Source: Ignavibacteria bacterium RIFCSPLOWO2_12_FULL_56_21
GTDB taxonomy: Bacteria > Bacteroidota > Ignavibacteria > UBA10030
NCBI GenBank assembly: GCA_001802945.1
Contig: MHAK01000111.1
Location: forward strand, 1 to 46,566
Direction: 5' to 3'
DNA length: 46,566 nt
Shown here: positions 1,793 through 13,429 of the stretch, one piece after another
Numbering within the stretch: the stretch's first letter is position 1
How the letters are laid out: each line of letters starts with the position of its first letter
Notes under the pieces: model-generated
The model's input: only the letters and a program-made list of their open reading frames with translations
Database searches by the model: none
What the model was told of the DNA's origin: nothing
Translations under genes and position numbers: made by a program

Positions 1793-2485
1793 CTACCCCT
1801 TGCTCTTCACGCGCAGCCTAAATCCCTTGCCATGGACGTTCGCGATTGTCACCGAGGGATCGGCGGCAAGATATTTCCGCAGCCGCGTTATAAACACGTC
1901 CATACTGCGGCCTGCATAGTAGGAATCATCCTCCCAGATCGTCTGGAGCGCTTCCTGCCGGCCCAGGGTTCGATTGCGCCTCTCGCACAACAATCTCAAC
2001 AACGCGGCTTCCCGTTCGGTCAACCGTCGCGAGCGGCGTCCTCGTGTCAACGTATTTCGCTCCAGGTCGAACGAGAACGACCCGAGCACAAACGAGCCCG
2101 CCTGCTCCTGTTCGCCCTGACTGCGGTTCGACCTCTTCAGCACGGCTCGCACCCGGAGGAGCAGTTCCTCCACGCTGAACGGTTTCGTCACGTAATCGTC
2201 CGCCCCGATGCGCAGCCCTTCCAGCCGGTCCTCTTTCAGCGAACGTGCGGTAAGAAATATGATTGGAACCTCGTTTCGCGCGGCACGCACCTTTCGTGCG
2301 AGCGCAAATCCGTCCAGCTTCGGCATCATGATGTCGAGAAGTACAAGGTCGCAGCCGTTCTTTTCCAAGAAACGCAGTCCTTCCTCGCCGTCGACGCACC
2401 TCTGCACGCGATACCCGTGGAGTTCGAGGTGTTCCTGCACCATGAATCCGAGATTGGCGTCATCCTCGACGAGAAGGATCGTCAT
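1793..2485 (-). CDS. OmpR/PhoB-family response regulator
   Basis: Receiver domain at about residues 2-115: acidic pair E7/D8/D9, phospho-acceptor D51 in LVLLDIMMP, conserved T/K in FLTAR and VTKPF. It is followed by a winged-helix DNA-binding domain (about 130-229) ending in the recognition-helix and wing pattern VFITRLRKYL...GKGFRL. Length 230 aa is typical. The kinase stop TGA and this ATG share one base (TGATG), indicating translational coupling; a GTG three bases upstream (2488) is an alternative start giving 231 aa. It is the cognate regulator of the kinase encoded just upstream. The likely target is the set of 10-bp TAAC direct repeats between the kinase gene and the divergent PDZ/ABC run, because this family binds tandem half-sites at helical spacing. 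Confidence 0.93.
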   Translation of the reverse strand: MTILLVEDDANLGFMVQEHLELHGYRVQRCVDGEEGLRFLEKNGCDLVLLDIMMPKLDGFALARKVRAARNEVPIIFLTARSLKEDRLEGLRIGADDYVTKPFSVEELLLRVRAVLKRSNRSQGEQEQAGSFVLGSFSFDLERNTLTRGRRSRRLTEREAALLRLLCERRNRTLGRQEALQTIWEDDSYYAGRSMDVFITRLRKYLAADPSVTIANVHGKGFRLRVKSKG

Positions 2486-4218
2486 CACGCCGTCCCCCGT
2501 TCCGATTGAGGTAGAGTGACACGGAAGGTCGTCCCTTTGCCCGGTATGCTTTCGACCGCGACACTCCCGCCATGCGCCTCAGCAACCAGCTTCACATAGC
2601 TCAAGCCAAGACCGAATCCCTGATGTTCCTGGTCGGAGTGTGACGGACCCCGATAGTACTTTTCAAACACCCTGTGGAGATGCTCGGGTGCAATTCCGTT
2701 GCCATTGTCCGCCACCTCAACAACCCACGTATCCTTCAGTGCAAATGAACGAACATCGATGATTGGCGTTGTCGACGAGTACTTCAGCGCATTGTCGAGA
2801 AGATTCAATAGAATATTTTCCAAATGAAGCCGATCGCCGACAATGCGGTCCGGCGATGATTCAGCATGGACGGTGATGCGGCCGCCACGATCTTCCGTGC
2901 GGAGCGCGACCGACTTCACGGCGTCGGCGATCAACCGGCGGACGTCGACCATATCTTTGCGTAGGTCGACATTTCCTTCTTCAAGCGCCGCGATTTGAAG
3001 GATCTTCTCCACGCGCTGTCGCATCCGCTCGTATTCGTCCCTGATGATCCCTGCATAACGCCGGACTCGCGAACGCGGCCTGCCGGACTGTAAGCGTTCG
3101 ATCGCTTCAGCGGCGAGCGAGATCGTCGACAGAGGCGTCTTGAATTCGTGCGTCATCGTGTTGATGAAATCTGTCAACCGGATGCCAAGCGCCTTTTGGC
3201 GTCGGATCGTTATAAGGGCGGCAGCAAAGCACGCTATGATGATAACGGTAAAGAGCGCACTGGCAGCGAATTCAGGCAGTACAAGCAACATCAGGTGTGA
3301 GGATGAGCCGGGGAATCTTACGTGCAGGGTGCGTCGAGGCACAAAGATCTCGCCCGGCAAAAGGAGAACGGAGTATTCGCTCATGCGCACAGCCTCCACT
3401 GATGCGCTTGTGCGCTGCATGACCGGAGGCGAAGCGAGTGAAGCGGAAACGGCGAATTCATACGGAAGTTCGATTCCGTTCGATCGGAACGTTTCGCCAA
3501 GCACCGAATCGACGAAGGCTGCGGAGAATCTTTGTTCGAACGGAGGGACCGGCTTATCGGCAAGTCCCGCAAAGACCTTGGTGATCATTCCGTAACGCTG
3601 GTCAGGAGTTCCTGAGGAGACGAACCACCGCTCCGGTTTTCCCTCTTCCTTGCGGACAACGCTTGACATACTGTCCGTCGTGAATTGAATATAATATCCC
3701 GTTCCCGTCGTTCGCTGTCGCGGTAACGGCAGAGCATAGTCCCCCCGGTCCCGAAACGTCTGGACGAGTACGGAATCAAGCTTTCCCGTCAGGTCGTACA
3801 TACGTATCGTCACCTTGTTGGGTTTTTCGAGACGATACCGGAATACGCTGTCTTCCAGCGAGGTCGCGCCATAGGCACCGACGGAATTGCCCGATGACCT
3901 CTTCCCATCGGTGGGCACCCAATACCGCACGAAGTCGTCGCGCACCTCGGCATTGACGACCATCAACCGATTCCTGGGCTGACGGCCTGTCTGGGGCGGA
4001 AGACTGTCGGCGCCGACGTTGAACAAACCGGTCATCGCGGAGTGTCCCATCAGTCGCTCATTGAGTTGCGCGAACGACGTGAAGACGCCCTGCCGAAAAT
4101 TCTGCTCCCGGAGCGTGAATGCATCGCGGAGAAGCGAATACTGCACGTAAACCAATCCCGCCAGGCCGACGAGCATGAGGCCGAGAAGAAGCAGTATGGT
4201 GCGGGAAGAGAATTTCAT
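2485..4218 (-). CDS. Membrane sensor histidine kinase
   Basis: 577 aa with the start chosen at the ATG before MKFSSRTILLLL. A longer frame opens at 4266, but its first 16 residues are not signal-like and its start would lie inside the TAAC repeat array. TM1 is about residues 5-26, then a roughly 280-residue periplasmic sensor region with no recognised family, TM2 about 309-336, then HisKA with phospho-acceptor H357 (MTHEFKTP). The HATPase_c domain has an N-box at N476 (LLDNALKYS), G1 DNGNG near 504-508 and G2 FGLGLS at 535-540. It senses an unknown envelope signal and should phosphorylate the regulator encoded directly downstream (TGATG junction). Its divergent partner is the PDZ/ABC export cassette, suggesting that the kinase controls it. 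Confidence 0.92.
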   Translation of the reverse strand: MKFSSRTILLLLGLMLVGLAGLVYVQYSLLRDAFTLREQNFRQGVFTSFAQLNERLMGHSAMTGLFNVGADSLPPQTGRQPRNRLMVVNAEVRDDFVRYWVPTDGKRSSGNSVGAYGATSLEDSVFRYRLEKPNKVTIRMYDLTGKLDSVLVQTFRDRGDYALPLPRQRTTGTGYYIQFTTDSMSSVVRKEEGKPERWFVSSGTPDQRYGMITKVFAGLADKPVPPFEQRFSAAFVDSVLGETFRSNGIELPYEFAVSASLASPPVMQRTSASVEAVRMSEYSVLLLPGEIFVPRRTLHVRFPGSSSHLMLLVLPEFAASALFTVIIIACFAAALITIRRQKALGIRLTDFINTMTHEFKTPLSTISLAAEAIERLQSGRPRSRVRRYAGIIRDEYERMRQRVEKILQIAALEEGNVDLRKDMVDVRRLIADAVKSVALRTEDRGGRITVHAESSPDRIVGDRLHLENILLNLLDNALKYSSTTPIIDVRSFALKDTWVVEVADNGNGIAPEHLHRVFEKYYRGPSHSDQEHQGFGLGLSYVKLVAEAHGGSVAVESIPGKGTTFRVTLPQSERGTA

Positions 4219-4258
4219 GATCGTCAAAGTACGCGGAGGGGTTGTGAAATGCCAGACC

Positions 4259-4323
4259 TTTAACATTCGTTAACAGTCGATAACACTGTTTAACGTGCGT
4301 CCCTGCATCATTGCCCGTATGTT
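4259..4323. promoter_or_regulatory. Four 10-bp TAAC direct repeats, probable response-regulator operator
   Basis: TAAC occurs at 4261, 4271, 4281 and 4291, an exact 10-bp period, with preceding bases TT, GT, GA and TT. The array sits in the divergent gap between the kinase gene (start 4218) and the PDZ gene (start 4365). A TATGTT hexamer at 4318-4323 could be the -10 box of the rightward promoter, with the last repeat replacing a -35 as in PhoB-type activation. OmpR/PhoB regulators bind tandem half-sites of 10-11 bp. The repeats are seen directly; that this regulator binds them is inferred. Confidence 0.6.
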
Positions 4324-4364: not shown

Positions 4365-5093
4365 ATGCGCGTCCTACACACATCCTTCCTCTTTCTCATT
4401 GTTCTTTCCGCTGTCGCGGCCGCCCGTCAAGACCAACAGCCCGGTGTGCGCAGGATGCAATTCAACTCCGACAACGCATTCTTGTTGAATGAAGTCGGAG
4501 CGGTCATCACAGAAGAACAAGGCGTTCTGAAGGTCATAATGGTCGGACCAAAGGAGCGGCGGACGAAGGGCTCGGAAGACGCCGACCTCTTTCGCGGCGA
4601 CGAGGTGATCATGGTGAACGGGAAGCGCATGAAAGGGATCAATGACCTGCAGGACGCCTATGCAACGACAACCGCAGGAAGCGAATTCAAGATCGGCGTT
4701 CGGAGGAATGAGGAAAGGGCCATCGTTACGGTTCTCAAGGCGGATCCCAAAGACCTGCCTCAGAGGCAGTTGATCATGGCGGGAGGATTGCCGGGGGGCG
4801 GCGAAGCGCTTCCCGCGCTTGGACTGATGCTCCGCAACGGCAAAGATTCCGTGATCGTTCATAGGGTCCTGCCCGCAGGACTTGAAGTCGTGCGGAACTC
4901 GCTCAAAGAAGGCGATCGCATAACAGCGCTCAACACCACGAAAGTGAATGATGTGAAGTCATTCGTCGACGTCTGGGACGTCATGAAGCAAGGCGATCAG
5001 GTGACGTTGACATATCAACGTGACGGAAAAGAACGAAACCTGGAATTCAAGAAACCCCGCCCGATGGGCGGTCCAATGATCATACGACAATGA
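4365..5093 (+). CDS. Secreted double-PDZ protein
   Basis: 242 aa, starting at the ATG before MRVLHTSFLFLIVLSAVAAA, a clean signal peptide (about 1-20), with a GGAGAG ribosome site eight bases upstream; a longer frame from 4311 lacks a sensible start. Two PDZ domains follow: residues about 40-127 (LFRGDEVIMVNGKRM core) and about 148-230 (LKEGDRITALNTTKV core). There is no serine protease domain, so this is not DegP/HtrA itself but a scaffold-like protein that would act in the periplasm or on the envelope, perhaps binding C-termini. Its stop overlaps the next start by four bases (ATGA), tying it to the NEW3/hairpin protein. It is the first gene behind the TAAC operator, so it is probably the first gene of the regulated unit. 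Confidence 0.85.
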   Translation: MRVLHTSFLFLIVLSAVAAARQDQQPGVRRMQFNSDNAFLLNEVGAVITEEQGVLKVIMVGPKERRTKGSEDADLFRGDEVIMVNGKRMKGINDLQDAYATTTAGSEFKIGVRRNEERAIVTVLKADPKDLPQRQLIMAGGLPGGGEALPALGLMLRNGKDSVIVHRVLPAGLEVVRNSLKEGDRITALNTTKVNDVKSFVDVWDVMKQGDQVTLTYQRDGKERNLEFKKPRPMGGPMIIRQ

Positions 5094-6598
5094 CGACAGT
5101 GCGTTTTCGGTTCCGAAACTGGTTGATCCTCCTCCTGTGCACTCTGACATGTGCTTCCGGCATTTCCGTCGCACAGGTCAATTACAACCAAAGGGACGAT
5201 AAATACCGATTGCTCGGACTCAAACGGGCAAAAGAAGCGTTCGAGGTTGCCAAGCGTGATTACGAACGGCAGAACGGGCTCTTTGGCAAGGGGCTCATTT
5301 CTCAGATCGAGCTGGATAGGTCGCACAATGTGTACTCCGATGCCGAGGTCAATTACCAGCAGTCTCTCCTGGCGGTACTCTTCGAGATGCAATTCGTTAC
5401 CGTTCACGGCGCCGTCAAGTATCAATCGCCGGACGGATCAAAATGGGTGCGGCTGACCCTCGCCAATACGTCCGGCGGGGGAGAGGAATTTCAAAAACTC
5501 CTGGGGATCGAGGACAGACTCTTCCGCTCGCTTCAACCGGATGTGATCAGTTACGTGTATGTCTCCCTGGCGAATCAGGAAGGAGCTGTGATCAGCCAGC
5601 CGTATGAGGCTAAAGTCGAACGCCTCCGCTTCGGATCGCCCAAGGAACTCAGGTTTCAGTTGCTCCAGGACCTGGACGCGGTCAGCGTCAACCTCATCTA
5701 CGGAAACGGAACGACGCGGTCGATGAAGATCTTTCTTCAGAAAGACAAATCGGCCAACAAGGTCCTCGTTCAGTCCCAGCAGTTTTCACAGGAAGGTGAG
5801 CTCGGAACCTCAGCGACATACGACCTTACTCTCGAACTCTTCAGCGCCGCGAACAGTACGTTCAGTCTCGAAGTGATAAACCTTCCTCAACAGATCAACA
5901 GACTTTTCCGGGATGTGGCGAGCAACGCCCGGTTGAGCCAGTTCAAGTTCACGGAAGCGTCAAACAGCCGACGTGCCGCTCTTGAGGTCACGCTTCCCGA
6001 CCGGCCCACGGAAGCCGTTCCCATGGACTCCGCGATCGCATTCTATGTGCTCGTTGTACCGACAGATCGGAGCGGAGAGATCTTGTCGAAAGTCAATACG
6101 CGTTGGGCGCTGGCCGATATCGAGCGCCTGGAAGTCGGATACGTGAGACTCGAACTCGTTCCCCGGGGCAAAGGAAGGCTCATTGTCAAAGCCCCACAGC
6201 TCTATCACACGGTGCGGCCGGGAGAATCCGTCGAAGCGACAATCGACATCCTGAATGAAGGAACGCGGCGATTGGACAATGTTCAGGTGAAGGTCGACGC
6301 GCCGTTGTTATGGGGAAAGGACGTGGTCCCGACGATCATTCCGTCGATCGACATCGGAGAAGAAAAACGCGTGACGATACGTGCGACCCCGTCGGACGAC
6401 GCATCCGTCGGAAGGTATGAGCTTCGTCTCAGGACAAGTGCTTTGTCGGACAATGAACCCGTGAATGCAGAGGACAAGACCCTCACCGTGGAGATCGCAG
6501 CAGAGACGAATGTGTGGGGAACCGCGCTGCTCGTTGTGGTCATCCTTGGACTGGTTGGAGGAATGGTGATATTCGGTATCAGGCTCTCAAAACGTTGA
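5090..6598 (+). CDS. NEW3-domain membrane protein with an adaptor-like helical hairpin
   Basis: 502 aa. Signal peptide about 1-29. Residues 38-98 look like the coiled-coil hairpin of HlyD/AcrA/MacA-type periplasmic adaptors, with a tip reading R60-x3-L64-x6-S71 (YERQNGLFGKGLIS), the spacing of the tip motif reported for adaptors that dock to TolC. No lipoyl or beta-barrel adaptor domain follows. The middle (about 100-360) is beta-rich and unrecognised. Residues about 370-470 match the NEW3 (COG1470-like) Ig-fold pattern (TVRPGESVEATIDILNEG). A C-terminal TM helix (about 475-497) ends in RLSKR, giving a periplasmic body with an inner-membrane anchor. It overlaps the PDZ gene (ATGA) and precedes the ABC ATPase and permease genes, so it is likely the periplasmic component of that transporter. 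Function is inferred. Confidence 0.8.
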   Translation: MTTVRFRFRNWLILLLCTLTCASGISVAQVNYNQRDDKYRLLGLKRAKEAFEVAKRDYERQNGLFGKGLISQIELDRSHNVYSDAEVNYQQSLLAVLFEMQFVTVHGAVKYQSPDGSKWVRLTLANTSGGGEEFQKLLGIEDRLFRSLQPDVISYVYVSLANQEGAVISQPYEAKVERLRFGSPKELRFQLLQDLDAVSVNLIYGNGTTRSMKIFLQKDKSANKVLVQSQQFSQEGELGTSATYDLTLELFSAANSTFSLEVINLPQQINRLFRDVASNARLSQFKFTEASNSRRAALEVTLPDRPTEAVPMDSAIAFYVLVVPTDRSGEILSKVNTRWALADIERLEVGYVRLELVPRGKGRLIVKAPQLYHTVRPGESVEATIDILNEGTRRLDNVQVKVDAPLLWGKDVVPTIIPSIDIGEEKRVTIRATPSDDASVGRYELRLRTSALSDNEPVNAEDKTLTVEIAAETNVWGTALLVVVILGLVGGMVIFGIRLSKR

Positions 6599-6608
6599 AT
6601 GGCTCGAT

Positions 6609-6810
6609 GAAAAGAATCACCACGAAGTTCACCAAGTGAGATAGAAATGAGTTCCTTATTCGTGGCTCTCGAGTAGAAAATGTACTCACTAAGGACACTG
6701 AGAAATAATTGGTTCACACCCTTCTTGGTGTTCTTAGTGGTCCAAACATCTTTCATCAAGCTCTTCAAGTACCAATTTTCCCTTCGTGTCCTTCGTGGGA
6801 AAATCTTCTA
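6609..6810. repeat. CACGAAG-type intergenic inverted repeats
   Basis: The 237 bp gap before the ABC ATPase gene carries tandem variants of CACGAAG/CACCAAG on the left (6615-6640) and the complementary CTTCGTGTCCTTCGTGG on the right (6782-6800). A second nested pair lies inside (CACTAAGGACACTGAG against CTTGGTGTTCTTAGTGG). The arrangement could fold into a long imperfect hairpin. It lies inside the presumed operon and might attenuate or process the transcript. Related arrays occur at 15557-15685 and 16745-16810. Confidence 0.6.
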
Positions 6811-6835
6811 ACCATGCTATACAACAGGAGGCACA

Positions 6836-7585
6836 ATGAACGCAACGCAACCTGCACCGATGCTCGAAGCCCGCGGCCTTGTCAAGCGGTATGAGGACGG
6901 CGTGCTTGCACTCGACCTCGTTTCCTTTGCCGTTCGGGCAGGGGAAATCTATGCCATGCTCGGGGCGAATGGAGCCGGCAAGACGACGACAATCAACATC
7001 TTCCTGAATTTCGTCGAACCGACAGAAGGTGAGGCACTCGTAGACGGCATCGTGACGCACAAAGACCCGCTCGCCGCAAAGGAGCGCCTGGCGTATGTGT
7101 CTGAGAACGTCATGCTCTATCCGAACTTCACGGCCATCCAAAACCTCGAGTTCTTCGCGCGACTGGCAGGAAAGACGGAGGTGACACGGGATGAATGCCG
7201 CGATGTTCTGCGACGAGTCGGTTTGCAGGATGATGCGCATGCAAAGCGGTTGAAGGGATTTTCCAAAGGGATGCGCCAAAAATGCGGGATCGCAATCGCT
7301 ATCCTCAAAGATGCTCCGGCAATTCTCCTGGACGAGCCGACGTCGGGCCTCGACCCGAAGGCGGGATTCGAATTCCTCAATCTGCTCGCAATACTCCGAT
7401 CCGAGGGAAAGGCGATCCTGATGTCAACACACGACATCTTCCGGGCAAAGGAGATCGCCGACACGGTCGGCATCATGAGTGCCGGGCGGCTCGCGCTGCA
7501 GCGGCCTGCGAGCGAACTTGCGGGTCAGGACCTCGAGCAATTATACCTGCAGCACATGGCGGGGCATGTGGAGAGGGCTGCCTAG
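6836..7585 (+). CDS. ABC transporter ATP-binding protein (ABC-2 type)
   Basis: 249 aa. Walker A is GANGAGKTT (43-51), the signature is degenerate (GFSKGMRQK, about 141-149), Walker B is AILLDEP (162-168), the D-loop is SGLDP and the switch histidine lies in STHD (197-200). The usual Q-loop glutamine is absent: the segment reads AYVSENVMLYP, a variation also seen in some ABC-2 exporters. A strong AGGAGG site lies seven bases before the ATG. Together with the two permeases downstream it should form a NosFY/ABC-2-like exporter that energises movement of an unknown lipid, polymer or protein across the inner membrane. The gap between its stop and the next start is 110 bp. Confidence 0.92.
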   Translation: MNATQPAPMLEARGLVKRYEDGVLALDLVSFAVRAGEIYAMLGANGAGKTTTINIFLNFVEPTEGEALVDGIVTHKDPLAAKERLAYVSENVMLYPNFTAIQNLEFFARLAGKTEVTRDECRDVLRRVGLQDDAHAKRLKGFSKGMRQKCGIAIAILKDAPAILLDEPTSGLDPKAGFEFLNLLAILRSEGKAILMSTHDIFRAKEIADTVGIMSAGRLALQRPASELAGQDLEQLYLQHMAGHVERAA

Positions 7586-7695
7586 CGCGATATCCGTGAA
7601 GAAATACAGAATCGCCCAGTACCAATAGGAAATTGAAAAAAGCAAACGACAAATTTCAGTTTGTATCCGGAACGAACTTGCGAGGTAAACTATCC

Positions 7696-9108
7696 ATGCT
7701 CACACTCATCATTGAAAAAGAAATCCGCGATCTCGTCAGCACGGCTCGGTTTGCCGTCACGTTTGGCATTTGTTCCTTGCTGATACTGCTTACGTTCTAC
7801 GTCGGCGCGCGGACATACGCGCTTCAGACAGAGCAGTACGAAGCGGCGCGGAAAGAGCAGCTTCGCCAGTTGGAAGGAGTCACGGATTGGTCGAGCGTGC
7901 GATCGGCGAGGGTTTTCCTGCCTCCACAGCCGCTCGCCGCCCTCGTCACGGGCATCTCCAACGACATCGGACGAAATGCTGAAGTGCGCGGCCGCGGCGA
8001 AGCGAACCCCCAGGACAGTCGTTATGCGGAGGACCCGATCTATGCCGTGTTCCGGTTCCTCGACCTGGACTTTCTCTTTCAGATCCTCCTCTCCCTTTTT
8101 GCGATCTTGTTCGGGTACGACGCCGTGTGCGGGGAGAAGGAGAGGGGAACTCTGCGGTTGACGTTCGCACAGGCTGTACCGCGATCGACGTATATTCTAG
8201 GAAAACTGGTCGGTTCGTTCGTTGCGCTGGGGATTCCCCTGATTGTGCCGTTGCTGATCGGGTGCGCTATTCTGCCGATGTTGGGCGTTCCGCTTTCCGC
8301 GGAGGAATGGCTGAGACTTGCCTTCATTGTCGCCTCAGGCCTGCTGTTTTTTGGAGTCTTCCTGAACTGCTCGATCCTGGTATCGGCGCTGACACACAGG
8401 TCGTCCAATGCTTTCCTTGCAATGTTGGTCGTATGGATCATGGCCATTATCGTTGTTCCCCGCACCGCGGTCGTGATCGCAGGTCGTGCAGTCGATGTCC
8501 CGACTGTCGATGAATTGGCCTCAAAAAAATCACGGTACAGCGCCCAGTTGTTCGCAGAAGACCGGATGGCGATGGGAAAATTCGTTCCGTCGAACCCCAC
8601 AGGGCCGCAGGTCATGCAGGAGTTCAACAAGTTCATGTCAAAGATCGCGGATGAGCGACAGAAGAAAATGGATGAGTTCAGCTCCAGGCTGAATGAAGAG
8701 AGGGTCAATATGCAGCGCATCCAGGAGGATCTGGCATTTGGTATCGCCCGCATATCGCCTGTGGCGTCTTTGTCGCTGGGGCTTGCGGATCTGGCTAATT
8801 CCGGCCTCGACCTGAAAGAGGAATTTCAGTCTTCCATCCAGAGGTATCAAAGATCGTATGGGGAATTCATGGTCAAGAAGACGGGCATGAATCCCGGCGG
8901 CGGCATGATCATGCGCATCACCGACGATAGCGACCGGGAAAAACCGAAGCCGATCGACCCCTCTGAGCTTCCCGTCTTCGTCTTTCAGCCGGAGACGCTC
9001 TCCGCTTCGCTGGCATCCGCACTGCCCGACTTGGGACTTCTGGCGGCATTGGCAACCGTACTCTTCCTTGCTGCAACCATGGCATTTCTTCGCTACGACG
9101 TGAGGTGA
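7696..9108 (+). CDS. ABC-2 type permease 1
   Basis: 470 aa from the ATG at 7696, which has GAGGT nine bases upstream; a TTG at 7633 opens a longer frame with a non-hydrophobic leader. TM1 (FAVTFGICSLLILLTFYVG) is followed by a long extracytoplasmic segment, then a block of TM helices (from LFQILLSLFAILFGYDAV to AFLAMLVVWIMAIIVVP). A second long polar, helical region of about 150 residues comes next, then a last TM helix ending FLRYDVR. The motif GEKERGTLRLTFAQAVPR is typical of NosY/DUF3526-like ABC-2 permeases. It is paralogous to the next gene; both end in FLRYDVR. It would pair with the ATPase encoded upstream. Confidence 0.9.
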   Translation: MLTLIIEKEIRDLVSTARFAVTFGICSLLILLTFYVGARTYALQTEQYEAARKEQLRQLEGVTDWSSVRSARVFLPPQPLAALVTGISNDIGRNAEVRGRGEANPQDSRYAEDPIYAVFRFLDLDFLFQILLSLFAILFGYDAVCGEKERGTLRLTFAQAVPRSTYILGKLVGSFVALGIPLIVPLLIGCAILPMLGVPLSAEEWLRLAFIVASGLLFFGVFLNCSILVSALTHRSSNAFLAMLVVWIMAIIVVPRTAVVIAGRAVDVPTVDELASKKSRYSAQLFAEDRMAMGKFVPSNPTGPQVMQEFNKFMSKIADERQKKMDEFSSRLNEERVNMQRIQEDLAFGIARISPVASLSLGLADLANSGLDLKEEFQSSIQRYQRSYGEFMVKKTGMNPGGGMIMRITDDSDREKPKPIDPSELPVFVFQPETLSASLASALPDLGLLAALATVLFLAATMAFLRYDVR

Positions 9109-9111
9109 ACG

Positions 9112-10587
9112 ATGATAACGAACATGATCGGCGTGATCATTCGCAAAGAACTTCGGGCGGCGCTCGTCAGTCCAAAATTTGTTGCCAGCTTCGGCGTCTG
9201 CGCGCTTCTGATGTTGCTCAGCACGTTCGTCGGCATCAGGGAATTTCAGGCGTCGCGCGAGCAGTATGAAGCCGCACAGCGGCTCAACGAGCAGGAAATG
9301 CGCGAGCAGACGGCATGGGGGAGGCTCGGCACACGCGTTTTCCGGGCCCCCGACCCTCTGCAGATCTTTGCCTCCGGTCTGCAGAACGACATCGGCCGCT
9401 GGTCGAGCGTTGACGCGTTCAATCCGGTCAAGCTCAAGAATAGCGTCTACAGCGACGACCCTGTCTTTGCCGTCTTCCGATTCATCGACCTGGCATTCAT
9501 TGTCCAGATCGTCCTGACGCTGATGGCGCTCGTCTACACGTATGATGCAGTGAATGGAGAACGCGAAAGCGGGACCCTGCAGCTGACCTTCGCCAATCCC
9601 GTCCCGCGCCATGTCTACATCCTGGGAAAAGCCGTCGGGGCATGGCTCGCACTTATCGTGCCTCTCTTCGTACCGCTGCTCATGTCGCTCGGTCTGCTAT
9701 CGGTGTTCGATATTCTATTGAGCGCAGAGCACTGGTTGCGGATCGCCATCATGATGGGAGCATCTCTTGCCCTCGTCAGCGTCTTCATCATGTCGGGGGT
9801 GCTTGTCTCCGCATTGACATCCCGATCGAGCGTTTCGTTTCTTGTGTGCCTTGTTGGCTGGGTGGTGACGGCGTTGCTCATCCCCCGGGCCGGCATGATG
9901 ACTGCCGGCTACCTCGTTGCCGTTCCGACGGCGGCGGAAACGGACAGCCGGTTGGACGGATTTTCCAAGGAACGATGGAACGTCCATATGAAAGAGTTGG
10001 GGGAACGATGGCGTGCAAGGAATGAACAGTTGACAGGCAAAACGGAAGAGGAACGCCGCGCCGAACGGGAAGCGAAGGAGTGGGATTGGATGGAGGAGGA
10101 CGATCGATCCCGAAAACAAGTGCAACGGGACATTGACGAGTATGCCACGCGGCTCCGCGAAGATGTGCGTAACCGGAAATTGGAACAGGAACGACTCGGG
10201 TTCACGCTGGCCCGGTTCTCGCCCGTGGCCGCCTTTCAGCTTGCGCTCATGAATCTTGCCGGCACAGACATGGGAATGAAGGCCCGGTTTGAGGACGCAT
10301 TGACGGAATACCGAAAGACGTTCAATACGTACCGCGATGCGAAGGTGAAAGAGTCAGGCACCTTTGGAGGTATTCGCATTTCGTTCGATTCTCAGCGCGG
10401 CATGAAGATCGAACAAGGTCGGGAGGAGACACTGGACTTGGCGGAGATGCCAAGATTCAGCGACCCGCGAGTTCCGTTGAGAGATGCATTCTCAGCGGCA
10501 CTTGTTGATATCGGTTTGCTGGTAGGCGCGGCTCTTCTGGCATGTGCCGCTGCTGTCGCCGCGTTTCTCAGGTATGATGTGCGCTGA
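9112..10587 (+). CDS. ABC-2 type permease 2 (paralogue of permease 1)
   Basis: 491 aa, starting three bases after the previous stop, with GAGGTG upstream. Same architecture as permease 1: TM1 (SFGVCALLMLLSTFVG), an extracytoplasmic loop with EQYEAAQRLNEQEM, a TM block beginning at AFIVQIVLTLMALVYTYDAV, the motif GERESGTLQLTFANPVPR, a long charged coiled-coil insertion (about residues 285-365, rich in E, R and K), and a final TM ending FLRYDVR. The pair probably forms a heterodimeric channel served by the one ATPase. The charged insertion is larger than in permease 1 and may be the part that contacts the PDZ or hairpin partners; that is inference. Confidence 0.9.
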   Translation: MITNMIGVIIRKELRAALVSPKFVASFGVCALLMLLSTFVGIREFQASREQYEAAQRLNEQEMREQTAWGRLGTRVFRAPDPLQIFASGLQNDIGRWSSVDAFNPVKLKNSVYSDDPVFAVFRFIDLAFIVQIVLTLMALVYTYDAVNGERESGTLQLTFANPVPRHVYILGKAVGAWLALIVPLFVPLLMSLGLLSVFDILLSAEHWLRIAIMMGASLALVSVFIMSGVLVSALTSRSSVSFLVCLVGWVVTALLIPRAGMMTAGYLVAVPTAAETDSRLDGFSKERWNVHMKELGERWRARNEQLTGKTEEERRAEREAKEWDWMEEDDRSRKQVQRDIDEYATRLREDVRNRKLEQERLGFTLARFSPVAAFQLALMNLAGTDMGMKARFEDALTEYRKTFNTYRDAKVKESGTFGGIRISFDSQRGMKIEQGREETLDLAEMPRFSDPRVPLRDAFSAALVDIGLLVGAALLACAAAVAAFLRYDVR

Positions 10588-10666: not shown

Positions 10667-13429
10667 ATGCAACGTTGGTCCTCGATTGTTCTCACTCTCC
10701 TTTTGATTGCATCGGCGGTCTTCGCTCAGGGGACCGTTACGACGTCCGGTCCGGGACGTCCTTCCTCTATTATAGTCCCTGAACTCAGCGGCGAGAAGGC
10801 CCGTTTCGTCAATCTTGTGCGACATTCGCCGGTCAGACGCCCGCGCGTCGGACTCGTCCTCAGCGGCGGCGGGGCGCGAGGCATCGCATCCATCGGCGTC
10901 TTCCGCGCCCTTGAACGGCACGCCATCACTCCCGATCTGGTCGTCGGTACAAGCATCGGCAGCATCGTCGGCGGCCTGTTCGCGACCGGGTACACCACGG
11001 CCAATCTTGAAAAATTGGCCCTCGAGACCGATTGGGCCGAGGTTCTCAACTACAACGATGACGCTCGCCGCCGGGACATGTTCCTCGATCAAAAGCTCGC
11101 GGATGATCGCAGCCTCCTCGTCCTTCGTTTCGACGGCTTCGTGCCGATTATTCCTGCCGCATTCTCCACGGGCCAGCGTCTTACGAATTTTCTAAACCTT
11201 CTGGTCCTCCAGGGGACATACCACCCGAAGACGAATTTTGACGACCTGCGCGTCCCGTTCCGCGCAATGACGACCGATCTGATCTCGGGAAAGCCGTACA
11301 TTTTCAAGGATGGCGACCTGTCGCAGGCCCTGCGGGCGAGTGTTGCCGTGCCTCTGCTGTTCAGCCCTGTGCGTCTGGGCGACAAGGAACTCATGGACGG
11401 CGGCCTGCTCTCGAACATGCCGGTCGACGTCGCCCGGAGTGAAGGCATGGACATCGTTGTCGTTGTCGATGTAACGAGTCCGCTGAGGCCGGATTCCCTG
11501 GTGAATGCACCGTGGGAGGTGGGGGAACAGATCATGGGGATTATGATGCAGGCGGCCAATCGCGAGGCGCTACGCCAAGCCGACATTGTCATTACTCCGG
11601 AACTTGGCGGACATCTTTCATCCGAATTCTCCGGACTCGAATCGTTGATCGATGCGGGGGATGCAGCAACGGAGAAGGTCCTCGCCAAGTTCGATTCTCT
11701 GTTCGAATCGCGCAGCGCTGCAATGTTCCGGGCGCACTCCGGGGCTGCCCACCCGCAGTGCACGATCGTCTACGACACGACGGTGTTTCAGACGCCGCAT
11801 CGCACGGCCCTGGACGCGTTGACGCACCGCGACACGGTTGAAGATTGCGACCTTCGGCGCGTCGTCACAGGGCTGTACGGTTCCGGCGATTTCGAAAGCG
11901 TGGCAGCCGAGATTTGGCCGCAAGTGGACGGCGACAGGATTGTGATGAGGGGCGTCCGTCATCCGGTCGTTCGCGGAGTGGATTTCGAGGGCGTCCAGGA
12001 GGTTTCCGTCGATTCGCTGCTGGAGATCGCATCGCCGATTCTTGGCCGTCCGATGAATGCCCAAACCGTGACCGGTGTGTTCGAGAACATTCTGGCGAAA
12101 TATCGTGAGGCGGGACTTTCCCTCGCAGAGATTCGTTCCGTGAGCTTCGATTCACTCGGCGGACGTGCTCGCATAGTGATCGATGAAGGCATTATCAACC
12201 TTATGACGATCCGCGGCACGAAAAAGACAAAGGACTATGTGCTCTGGAGGGAGTTGCCGTTCAAGGCGGGTGACGTCTTTCGCGTGGCGAAGGTCGCCGA
12301 AGGCCTGTCCAATCTTGCAAGCACAAACCTTTTTGAACAGGCGTCGATCACCGTTGAGCGGGAAGGGGAAGAGGACCGCCGTCGCGTCATTGTCATCAAC
12401 GCACGCGAGCGATATACCGAACTGATCCGTCTCGGCCTCTACGTAAATAATGAACGTGGCATCCAGCCCTCGGTCGACATGCGCGACGAGAATTTCCTTG
12501 GCATCGGCGCCGAGCTTGGTCTTCGCGCATTTGGCGGTACGCGGAACGAGAGCTACATAGCGGAATTCAAGGCAGTTCGCATCTTCAATTCCTATCTCAC
12601 CTCAAGTTTACGCGCATACATGATCAGCCGCGACATCAACACGTTCACGGATGCGACGGGTTTGCGTGAGGACCGCTTTAACCGCGTACGGACGGGCGAG
12701 ATACGCGAGGTCCGTCGCGGCGGATCGTTGAGCTTCGGTACGCAACTGGAACGCCTCGGCAACGTCACAGTCGAAGGACGGCTTGAACGTCATCAGGTAT
12801 ACAACATTTACAACGAGCCCGTCGTCAACCAGTCGTATGACATTTCCTCCATACGGTTTGGCACGAGAGTCGACACCGAGGACCGGTATCCCTTCCCGAC
12901 CGAAGGAATAGATTTTCAGTTCATGTATGAGACGGCGTTGGTCAAGACTCCTGGGTCGGTCGGGTTTACCAAAATGCTTCTGACGTATGAGACTGTCCGC
13001 ACGTTCGCGGGATCGCATTCGTTCCGTCCAAAATTCACGCTTGGTCTTGGGGACGAAGCGGTGCCGACGTCCGAACAGTTCACGCTGGGCGGCTGGGAGA
13101 GTTTTTTCGGCTACCGCGAGGATAACGCCCGCGGGCGCCAGTTGTTCTCGGCAAGCCTGGAATACCTGTACCGGCTGCCGTTCAAAGTCTATTTCGACGC
13201 CTATGCCACTGTCCGGTACGACATCGGCTCGATCTGGCTGCGGCCGGAGGAGATCCGGTTGATCGACCTCAAACACGCCGTGGGTGTGGGGTTGGCGTTC
13301 GACACGCCCGTCGGTCCGGCGACGTTCGCGCTGGGGCGGAGTTTCTTCCTCAGAAAAGACCTTCTGGAAAAACCGGTTTCCCTCGGACCGTTGCTGGCAT
13401 ATTTCAGCATTGGATTGAGACTAAATTGA
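10667..13429 (+). CDS. Patatin-like phospholipase with POTRA and outer-membrane barrel (PlpD-like)
   Basis: 920 aa. Signal peptide about 1-20. Patatin domain about 60-265: oxyanion loop SGGGARG (66-72), nucleophile S96 in GTSIG, catalytic D244 in DGG. Residues about 430-590 carry POTRA-like segments (VRGVDFEGVQEVS; LMTIRGTKKTKDYV). The rest (about 595-920) is a 16-strand-type Omp85/D15 barrel with FFGYREDNARG as the likely conserved strand/loop region, and an end reading SIGLRLN. This is the architecture of type Vd secreted patatins, although release of the lipase domain cannot be judged here. It would hydrolyse acyl esters at the cell surface or in the outer membrane. It sits directly behind the ABC permeases and may share their transcript or use its own promoter. 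Confidence 0.92.
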   Translation: MQRWSSIVLTLLLIASAVFAQGTVTTSGPGRPSSIIVPELSGEKARFVNLVRHSPVRRPRVGLVLSGGGARGIASIGVFRALERHAITPDLVVGTSIGSIVGGLFATGYTTANLEKLALETDWAEVLNYNDDARRRDMFLDQKLADDRSLLVLRFDGFVPIIPAAFSTGQRLTNFLNLLVLQGTYHPKTNFDDLRVPFRAMTTDLISGKPYIFKDGDLSQALRASVAVPLLFSPVRLGDKELMDGGLLSNMPVDVARSEGMDIVVVVDVTSPLRPDSLVNAPWEVGEQIMGIMMQAANREALRQADIVITPELGGHLSSEFSGLESLIDAGDAATEKVLAKFDSLFESRSAAMFRAHSGAAHPQCTIVYDTTVFQTPHRTALDALTHRDTVEDCDLRRVVTGLYGSGDFESVAAEIWPQVDGDRIVMRGVRHPVVRGVDFEGVQEVSVDSLLEIASPILGRPMNAQTVTGVFENILAKYREAGLSLAEIRSVSFDSLGGRARIVIDEGIINLMTIRGTKKTKDYVLWRELPFKAGDVFRVAKVAEGLSNLASTNLFEQASITVEREGEEDRRRVIVINARERYTELIRLGLYVNNERGIQPSVDMRDENFLGIGAELGLRAFGGTRNESYIAEFKAVRIFNSYLTSSLRAYMISRDINTFTDATGLREDRFNRVRTGEIREVRRGGSLSFGTQLERLGNVTVEGRLERHQVYNIYNEPVVNQSYDISSIRFGTRVDTEDRYPFPTEGIDFQFMYETALVKTPGSVGFTKMLLTYETVRTFAGSHSFRPKFTLGLGDEAVPTSEQFTLGGWESFFGYREDNARGRQLFSASLEYLYRLPFKVYFDAYATVRYDIGSIWLRPEEIRLIDLKHAVGVGLAFDTPVGPATFALGRSFFLRKDLLEKPVSLGPLLAYFSIGLRLN

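Follow-up and report, generated by a model that had tools for sequence, protein, structure and literature searches.

A NEW3-domain protein with an adaptor-type hairpin encoded beside an ABC-2 exporter in an Ignavibacteria genome

We analyzed a 46,566-nucleotide stretch of DNA from Ignavibacteria bacterium RIFCSPLOWO2_12_FULL_56_21 (the window) and found that a NEW3-domain protein encoded in it carries, shortly after a putative signal peptide, a predicted alpha-hairpin that matches the hairpins of periplasmic adaptors at the level of homology and bears a conserved arginine-leucine-serine (RLS) motif at its tip. The gene belongs to an ABC-2 exporter operon, and in divergent relatives it adjoins a gene of the TolC family. 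We consider it likely that the protein is an inner-membrane-anchored periplasmic adaptor that docks the ABC-2 exporter onto TolC-type channels, the docking itself being inferred.

From the N to the C terminus, the protein comprises a signal sequence, the hairpin, three beta-sandwich domains, and a C-terminal transmembrane (TM) helix. Its start codon overlaps the stop codon of the preceding PDZ gene as ATGA, and the features of the gene are located as follows.
5090..6598, + strand: hairpin-NEW3 gene, 502 aa (ORF list, AlphaFold2 model, Pfam NPCBM_assoc E 2.9e-11, orthologues)
5090..5176, + strand: putative cleaved signal peptide, residues 1 to ~29, ending ..SVAQ (model, homologues)
5198..5386, + strand: adaptor-type alpha-hairpin, residues 37-99, with predicted helices 37-66 and 72-99 (model, hhalign, NCBIfam TIGR00999, genome-wide specificity)
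5267..5302, + strand: RLS tip motif R60-x3-L64-x6-S71 (codons, conservation, definition in PMC3391258)
6215..6436, + strand: NEW3 (NPCBM_assoc) domain, residues 376-449 (Pfam, structural match to a sialidase domain)
6512..6592, + strand: predicted C-terminal TM helix, residues 475-501, with a short basic tail (model, conserved GIRLSRR-like end)

A first-pass annotation of this DNA had read the spacing reported for AcrA/MacA adaptor tips at R60, L64, and S71, and the codons CGG, CTC, and TCT at 5267-5302 confirm all three residues; the span 5207-5383 around them encodes residues 40-98. The motif alone is weak evidence because it is common by composition. R-x3-L-x6-S turned up somewhere in 28% of whole-protein shuffles and in 3.9% when only the hairpin was shuffled, and it occurs in the protein once more, by chance, at residue 188. 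Since the motif is not rare, the case for it rests on its position, its conservation, and the profile controls.

We modeled the 502-aa protein with AlphaFold2 (54 homologues in the input, mean pLDDT 88.5, pTM 0.60). The model consists of a signal-sequence helix, the hairpin, beta sandwiches at residues ~103-220, 224-360, and 362-470, and a helix at 475-501, in that order, with the relative orientation of the domains being uncertain. The hairpin that had been proposed near residues 38-98 is predicted confidently as the two helices listed above (block mean pLDDT 93-95 across residues 51-80), and the turn between them, at residues 67-71, is straddled by the R60-L64-S71 motif. A model without a hairpin in this region had been named beforehand as an outcome that would refute the idea, and that outcome did not occur. 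A homologue from a TolC-linked locus (L120), 34% identical, was modeled with the same order: a hairpin formed by helices 26-60 and 66-94, beta domains, and a C-terminal helix. Ahead of the hairpin, a hydrophobic helix at residues 2-27 is followed by low pLDDT at 29-32, which is the basis for the putative signal peptide, and the putative signal peptides of homologues finish alike (..AQ/SQ); cleavage at about residue 29 was inferred by eye.

The remaining architectural claims of the first-pass annotation, namely, a NEW3 fold, a C-terminal anchor, and the absence of a lipoyl domain, also hold. The NEW3 domain scored 43.8 bits with Pfam PF10633, compared to a gathering cutoff of 24.4, and residues 362-470 superimposed on the corresponding NEW3-type domain of a sialidase (Z 12.4, rmsd 1.9 over 99 residues). 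The C-terminal helix is predicted in the model and its GIRLSRR-like end is kept in homologues; that this helix anchors the protein in the inner membrane remains a prediction, for which there are no membrane-insertion data. No lipoyl family was found in the protein with Pfam, and no N-terminal lipoyl half is possible, because the hairpin begins at residue 37, only about eight residues past the putative end of the signal peptide. Beta-barrel and membrane-proximal adaptor domains likewise gave no sequence match with Pfam or the adaptor profile; the model shows beta sandwiches, and single-domain folds were not searched. Foldseek and VIA lists obtained with the whole model contained no adaptor and named integrin, alpha-2-macroglobulin, and sialidase, a result from which nothing can be concluded, since the beta domains take up the match lists.

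We then asked how the hairpin compares with true adaptor hairpins. NCBIfam adaptor models matched residues 39-94 only (CzcB/NccB at 5.5e-5, RND_mfp at 1.3e-3, MdtN, and EmrA), all far under their whole-protein cutoffs; the match to TIGR00999, with an E value of 5.5e-5, covers residues 44-91. When the family profile was compared to the PDB, the best five matches were all periplasmic adaptors aligned at the hairpin, with weak E values (0.005-0.16). By hhalign, the hairpin aligned with 29 RND-type adaptors of related genomes (probability 97.5%, single-target E 5e-12), and its R, L, and S residues were in register with the adaptors' own motif. The controls failed to reproduce this: permeases, a kinase, and PDZ proteins gave ≤1%, a TolC profile 16%, 20 column shuffles ≤23.6%, and the reversed profile 0.1%. 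The three body domains gave ≤1.1% against the adaptor profile. A generic coiled coil was rejected as an explanation, since the shuffled, reversed, and unrelated controls fail.

The specificity was also seen in whole genomes. A search of five of them (G000, G003, G010, G033, and G036) with the hairpin profile returned 27 matches outside the family, and 27/27 lay on RND-type adaptors, as assigned by coordinate overlap with matches of the RND adaptor model. Reciprocally, the RND adaptor model detected the hairpin genes of genomes G036 and G046 at the model's hairpin positions, and an adaptor profile that we built locally detected most family members, again at the hairpin positions of the profile. 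As far as sequence can tell, the hairpin specifically resembles bona fide adaptor hairpins and not any coiled coil. The likeness to adaptor hairpins, noted at first from the sequence, is borne out by HMM comparison, with an in-register alignment and no control above 24%.

The tip is highly conserved close to home. Among 27 first-round homologues from related genomes, R is present in 27/27, L in 26/27 (M in the other), and S in 26/27 (A in the other). In a set of 90 homologues, extending down to 25-26% identity, R is found in 75/90, L or M in 86/90 (82 and 4, respectively), and S or T in 81/90 (65 and 16). The S-to-T replacement at the third tip position is a known HlyD variant that was shown to be functional (PMC3391258). 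Residues at the hairpin base, such as Q90, Q91, and L94, are conserved to the same extent as the tip. Loss of the motif in homologues had been named beforehand as an outcome that would refute the idea, and here the answer is divided: the motif is kept in the main clade, and the tip is partly missing in divergent members.

The locus in the window contains, in order, a divergent regulator and kinase pair, a double-PDZ gene, the hairpin gene, an ABC ATPase gene, and two ABC-2 permease genes. The neighbors of the hairpin gene are as follows.
1793..2488, - strand: RprY-like response regulator (NCBIfam RprY model E 1.3e-81, below its cutoff; conserved)
2485..4266, - strand: sensor histidine kinase, divergent, probable regulator (HATPase_c 1.3e-28, HisKA 9.2e-13; conserved divergent pair)
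4365..5093, + strand: double-PDZ protein with a signal peptide, upstream of the hairpin gene (Pfam PDZ_2 2.5e-20, PDZ_6; synteny)
6836..7585, + strand: ABC ATPase (Pfam ABC_tran 8.9e-28; adjoins the hairpin gene in nearly all loci)
7633..9108, + strand: ABC-2 permease A (Pfam ABC2_membrane_2 1.7e-28)
9112..10587, + strand: ABC-2 permease B (Pfam ABC2_membrane_2 7.2e-27, DUF3526 2.5e-12)

The ATPase and at least one permease were present in 40/40 extended loci and in nearly all complete loci of a further set, and the two-component pair and PDZ gene are kept across most of the main clade. The divergent kinase/regulator pair suggests that the exporter is under the control of an envelope signal, and a regulatory role is probable for both the PDZ protein and the two-component pair. 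A promoter scan gave nothing usable.

Several other observations were made at these loci. In a variant operon (L045-L047, L050, and L102-L105), the ATPase gene and two to four ABC-2 permease genes lie in tandem, with the hairpin gene last; locus L046 also has a conventional adaptor gene (L046:164-1369) upstream of its ABC gene. The 237-bp gap between the hairpin and ATPase genes of the window (6599-6835) carries a dispersed repeat that matches the genome at 16 places, its own included, mostly over 26-140 bp with 76-96% identity. Farther along, the region 15708-35820, as scanned, encodes ThyX, a protein with a weak M49 peptidase match, a GMC oxidoreductase, another histidine kinase, adenylosuccinate synthetase, enolase, phosphoglucomutase, and a DUF5916/CBM9 protein. 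A search of viral contigs returned no relatives.

A TolC-family profile run across all loci identified ten genes, and 10/10 adjoin the hairpin gene on the same strand, upstream of it in L110, L111, L118, L120, and L122 and downstream in L127 and L129-L132. All ten match Pfam OEP with E values of ~1e-28 or better, and where the TolC-family gene lies downstream, it has a possible start that overlaps the end of the hairpin gene. The ten loci come from Latescibacterota, Chlorobiota, Bacteroidota (Tannerellaceae and Porphyromonadaceae MAGs), and Gemmatimonadota. On a family tree built from the body domains only, their hairpin proteins occupy three or four places; five of the ten are near-identical, and the placement of L122, on a long branch, is unsure. 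The PDZ gene is absent where TolC linkage occurs in divergent members. By Pfam, no second conventional adaptor was found among the scanned neighbors in the TolC-linked operons, where four small neighbors had no Pfam match. A linked TolC gene was found neither in the window operon nor in the other loci scanned from the main clade, which bears the RLS tip; the genome of the window encodes six TolC-family proteins elsewhere, plus a fragment.

The canonical tip arginine and TolC linkage never co-occur in the same members: the arginine is absent in 10/10 TolC-linked members, which have Q, N, K, or I, and present in 75/80 unlinked ones. The linked TolC-type proteins, too, have tips unlike those of the unlinked channels with which they were compared, with unusual sequences such as GNLPEGD and GLARPVE. 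These data could mean that the general tip is retained by members that use a shared channel, while members that have a channel of their own have drifted together with that channel. We treat this pattern only as a lead and not as a result, because the linked members fall in few lineages.

Taken together, the in-register hairpin, the conserved tip, and the TolC-family gene in ten divergent loci support the proposal of the first-pass annotation that the protein connects an ABC exporter with a partner in the outer membrane, with docking and export remaining inferred. In the mechanism that we envisage, the protein would be exported by Sec and lose its signal peptide, and the C-terminal helix would retain it in the inner membrane beside the heterodimeric permease encoded by the next genes. 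The three beta-sandwich domains would form a stalk, and the free N-terminal hairpin would be directed toward the outer membrane, an orientation that we infer. There, the R-L-S tip may dock on a TolC-family channel, at its periplasmic end, in the manner of the AcrA, MacA, and HlyD tips, and the ATPase would power the movement of substrate from the inner membrane into the channel. In the lineage of the window, the channel would be shared and encoded elsewhere, its identity as the partner again being an inference. Transport and its direction, the substrate, and any oligomer that the protein forms are inferred as well.

Other readings of these data were considered. The strong conservation of the PDZ and kinase/regulator genes in the main clade, without a linked TolC gene, and the conservation of the hairpin base to the same degree as the tip would fit a hairpin that derives from an adaptor and now binds the PDZ protein, the sensor kinase, or the periplasmic domains of the permeases, with a role in sensing or assembly and not in TolC docking. 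We think this unlikely. Conservation of the tip motif itself in the main clade can be understood only if the tip has something to bind, and divergent members show TolC linkage without the PDZ gene. The body of the protein invites a different reading, in which it is a substrate-binding or chaperone subunit whose NEW3 and Ig-like domains bind, in the periplasm, the molecule to be exported or a glycan and whose hairpin is structural. Other NEW3 proteins are mostly carbohydrate-active or surface proteins, the domain is best known in carbohydrate-active enzymes, and the best structural match here was a sialidase domain; however, a subunit of this kind would leave both the adaptor-type tip and the TolC-family linkage unexplained, and we find the idea improbable.

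The outer-membrane partner in the lineage of the window could also be sought in a patatin-POTRA-Omp85 protein and not in a TolC-type channel. Its gene follows permease B in the window (10667-13429) and likewise in L095, L096, L098, and L117, and in no other loci; it is missing from most loci with the same RLS hairpin, and no Omp85 protein is known to accept an adaptor hairpin. We give this possibility hardly any weight. Nor do we put much faith in a generic coiled-coil hairpin that matches RLS by chance. The frequency of the motif in shuffled whole proteins allows for such a match, but the reversed and column-shuffled controls fail, the matches across five genomes are exclusively adaptors, and conservation is high over 90 homologues, so that coincidence seems a very poor explanation. 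TolC docking by an adaptor remains the reading that we prefer.

With moderate confidence, we further propose that these proteins form a separate class of trans-envelope adaptor, in which a portable N-terminal TolC-docking hairpin is set on an Ig/NEW3 stalk of reversed polarity and serves ABC-2 exporters in Bacteroidota, Ignavibacteria, Zixibacteria, KSB1, Calditrichota, Acidobacteria, Gemmatimonadota, and Latescibacteria. In the literature searched, which left out most subscription journals, we found no description of a NEW3-type adaptor or of a NEW3 protein with an adaptor hairpin; NEW3 together with TolC returned only a survey of Klebsiella isolates, unrelated by its title, and DUF3526 together with ABC was not found. 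The protein probably represents a previously unrecognized type of link between an exporter and the outer membrane. Periplasmic adaptors are regarded as having a lipoyl domain as a standard component (PMC4446572, PMC13328181), and lipoyl and barrel domains were still described as common modules in a 2026 review (PMC13328181). If our proposal is true, an exporter can be coupled to TolC without either a lipoyl domain or a beta-barrel, and a widespread family that retains just the hairpin and its tip, set on a stalk unlike that of adaptors, would separate the needs of TolC docking from those of ring assembly and pump coupling. It would also add a probable class of ABC-2 tripartite exporters in groups with few characterized exporters and give a function to a family now annotated only by its NEW3 domain, and the natural variants of tip and channel would be material for probing the specificity of tip-to-tip contacts.

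The protein can be set beside several known systems. It shares with AcrA, MacA, and HlyD an alpha-hairpin of similar sequence with an R-x3-L-x6-S/T tip, a predicted inner-membrane anchor, a gene located with that of a transporter, and, in some lineages, an adjoining TolC-family gene. In that family, the hairpin is spliced into the lipoyl domain (PMC4446572), whereas here it is N-terminal and free, and because it is not spliced into a lipoyl domain, we leave the protein outside the family. Moreover, no lipoyl, beta-barrel, or membrane-proximal domain is recognizable in its body of three beta sandwiches, and its anchor is C-terminal, at the opposite end from that of HlyD or MacA. With NEW3/NPCBM_assoc proteins it has in common a C-terminal beta-sandwich domain that scores above the Pfam cutoff.

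Among exporters, MacA-MacB-TolC is similar in being ATP driven and in having, in MacA, an adaptor with a TolC-binding RLS tip; it differs in that MacB is an ABC transporter of another type (type VII) and MacA has lipoyl and barrel domains. The arrangement of the window operon resembles that of E. coli YbhG-YbhFSR, in which an ATPase, two permeases, and an adaptor-like gene share one operon and TolC is encoded elsewhere; YbhGFSR probably uses this unlinked channel (PMC7190983). The same ABC-2 arrangement is present in the window, with transport inferred. Unlike YbhG, which is predicted to be a conventional membrane fusion protein, the protein described here has a NEW3-type body, and PDZ and two-component genes are conserved alongside it. 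Finally, Borrelia BesA is an adaptor without a hairpin (PMC4446572), and the hairpin-NEW3 protein represents the reverse case.
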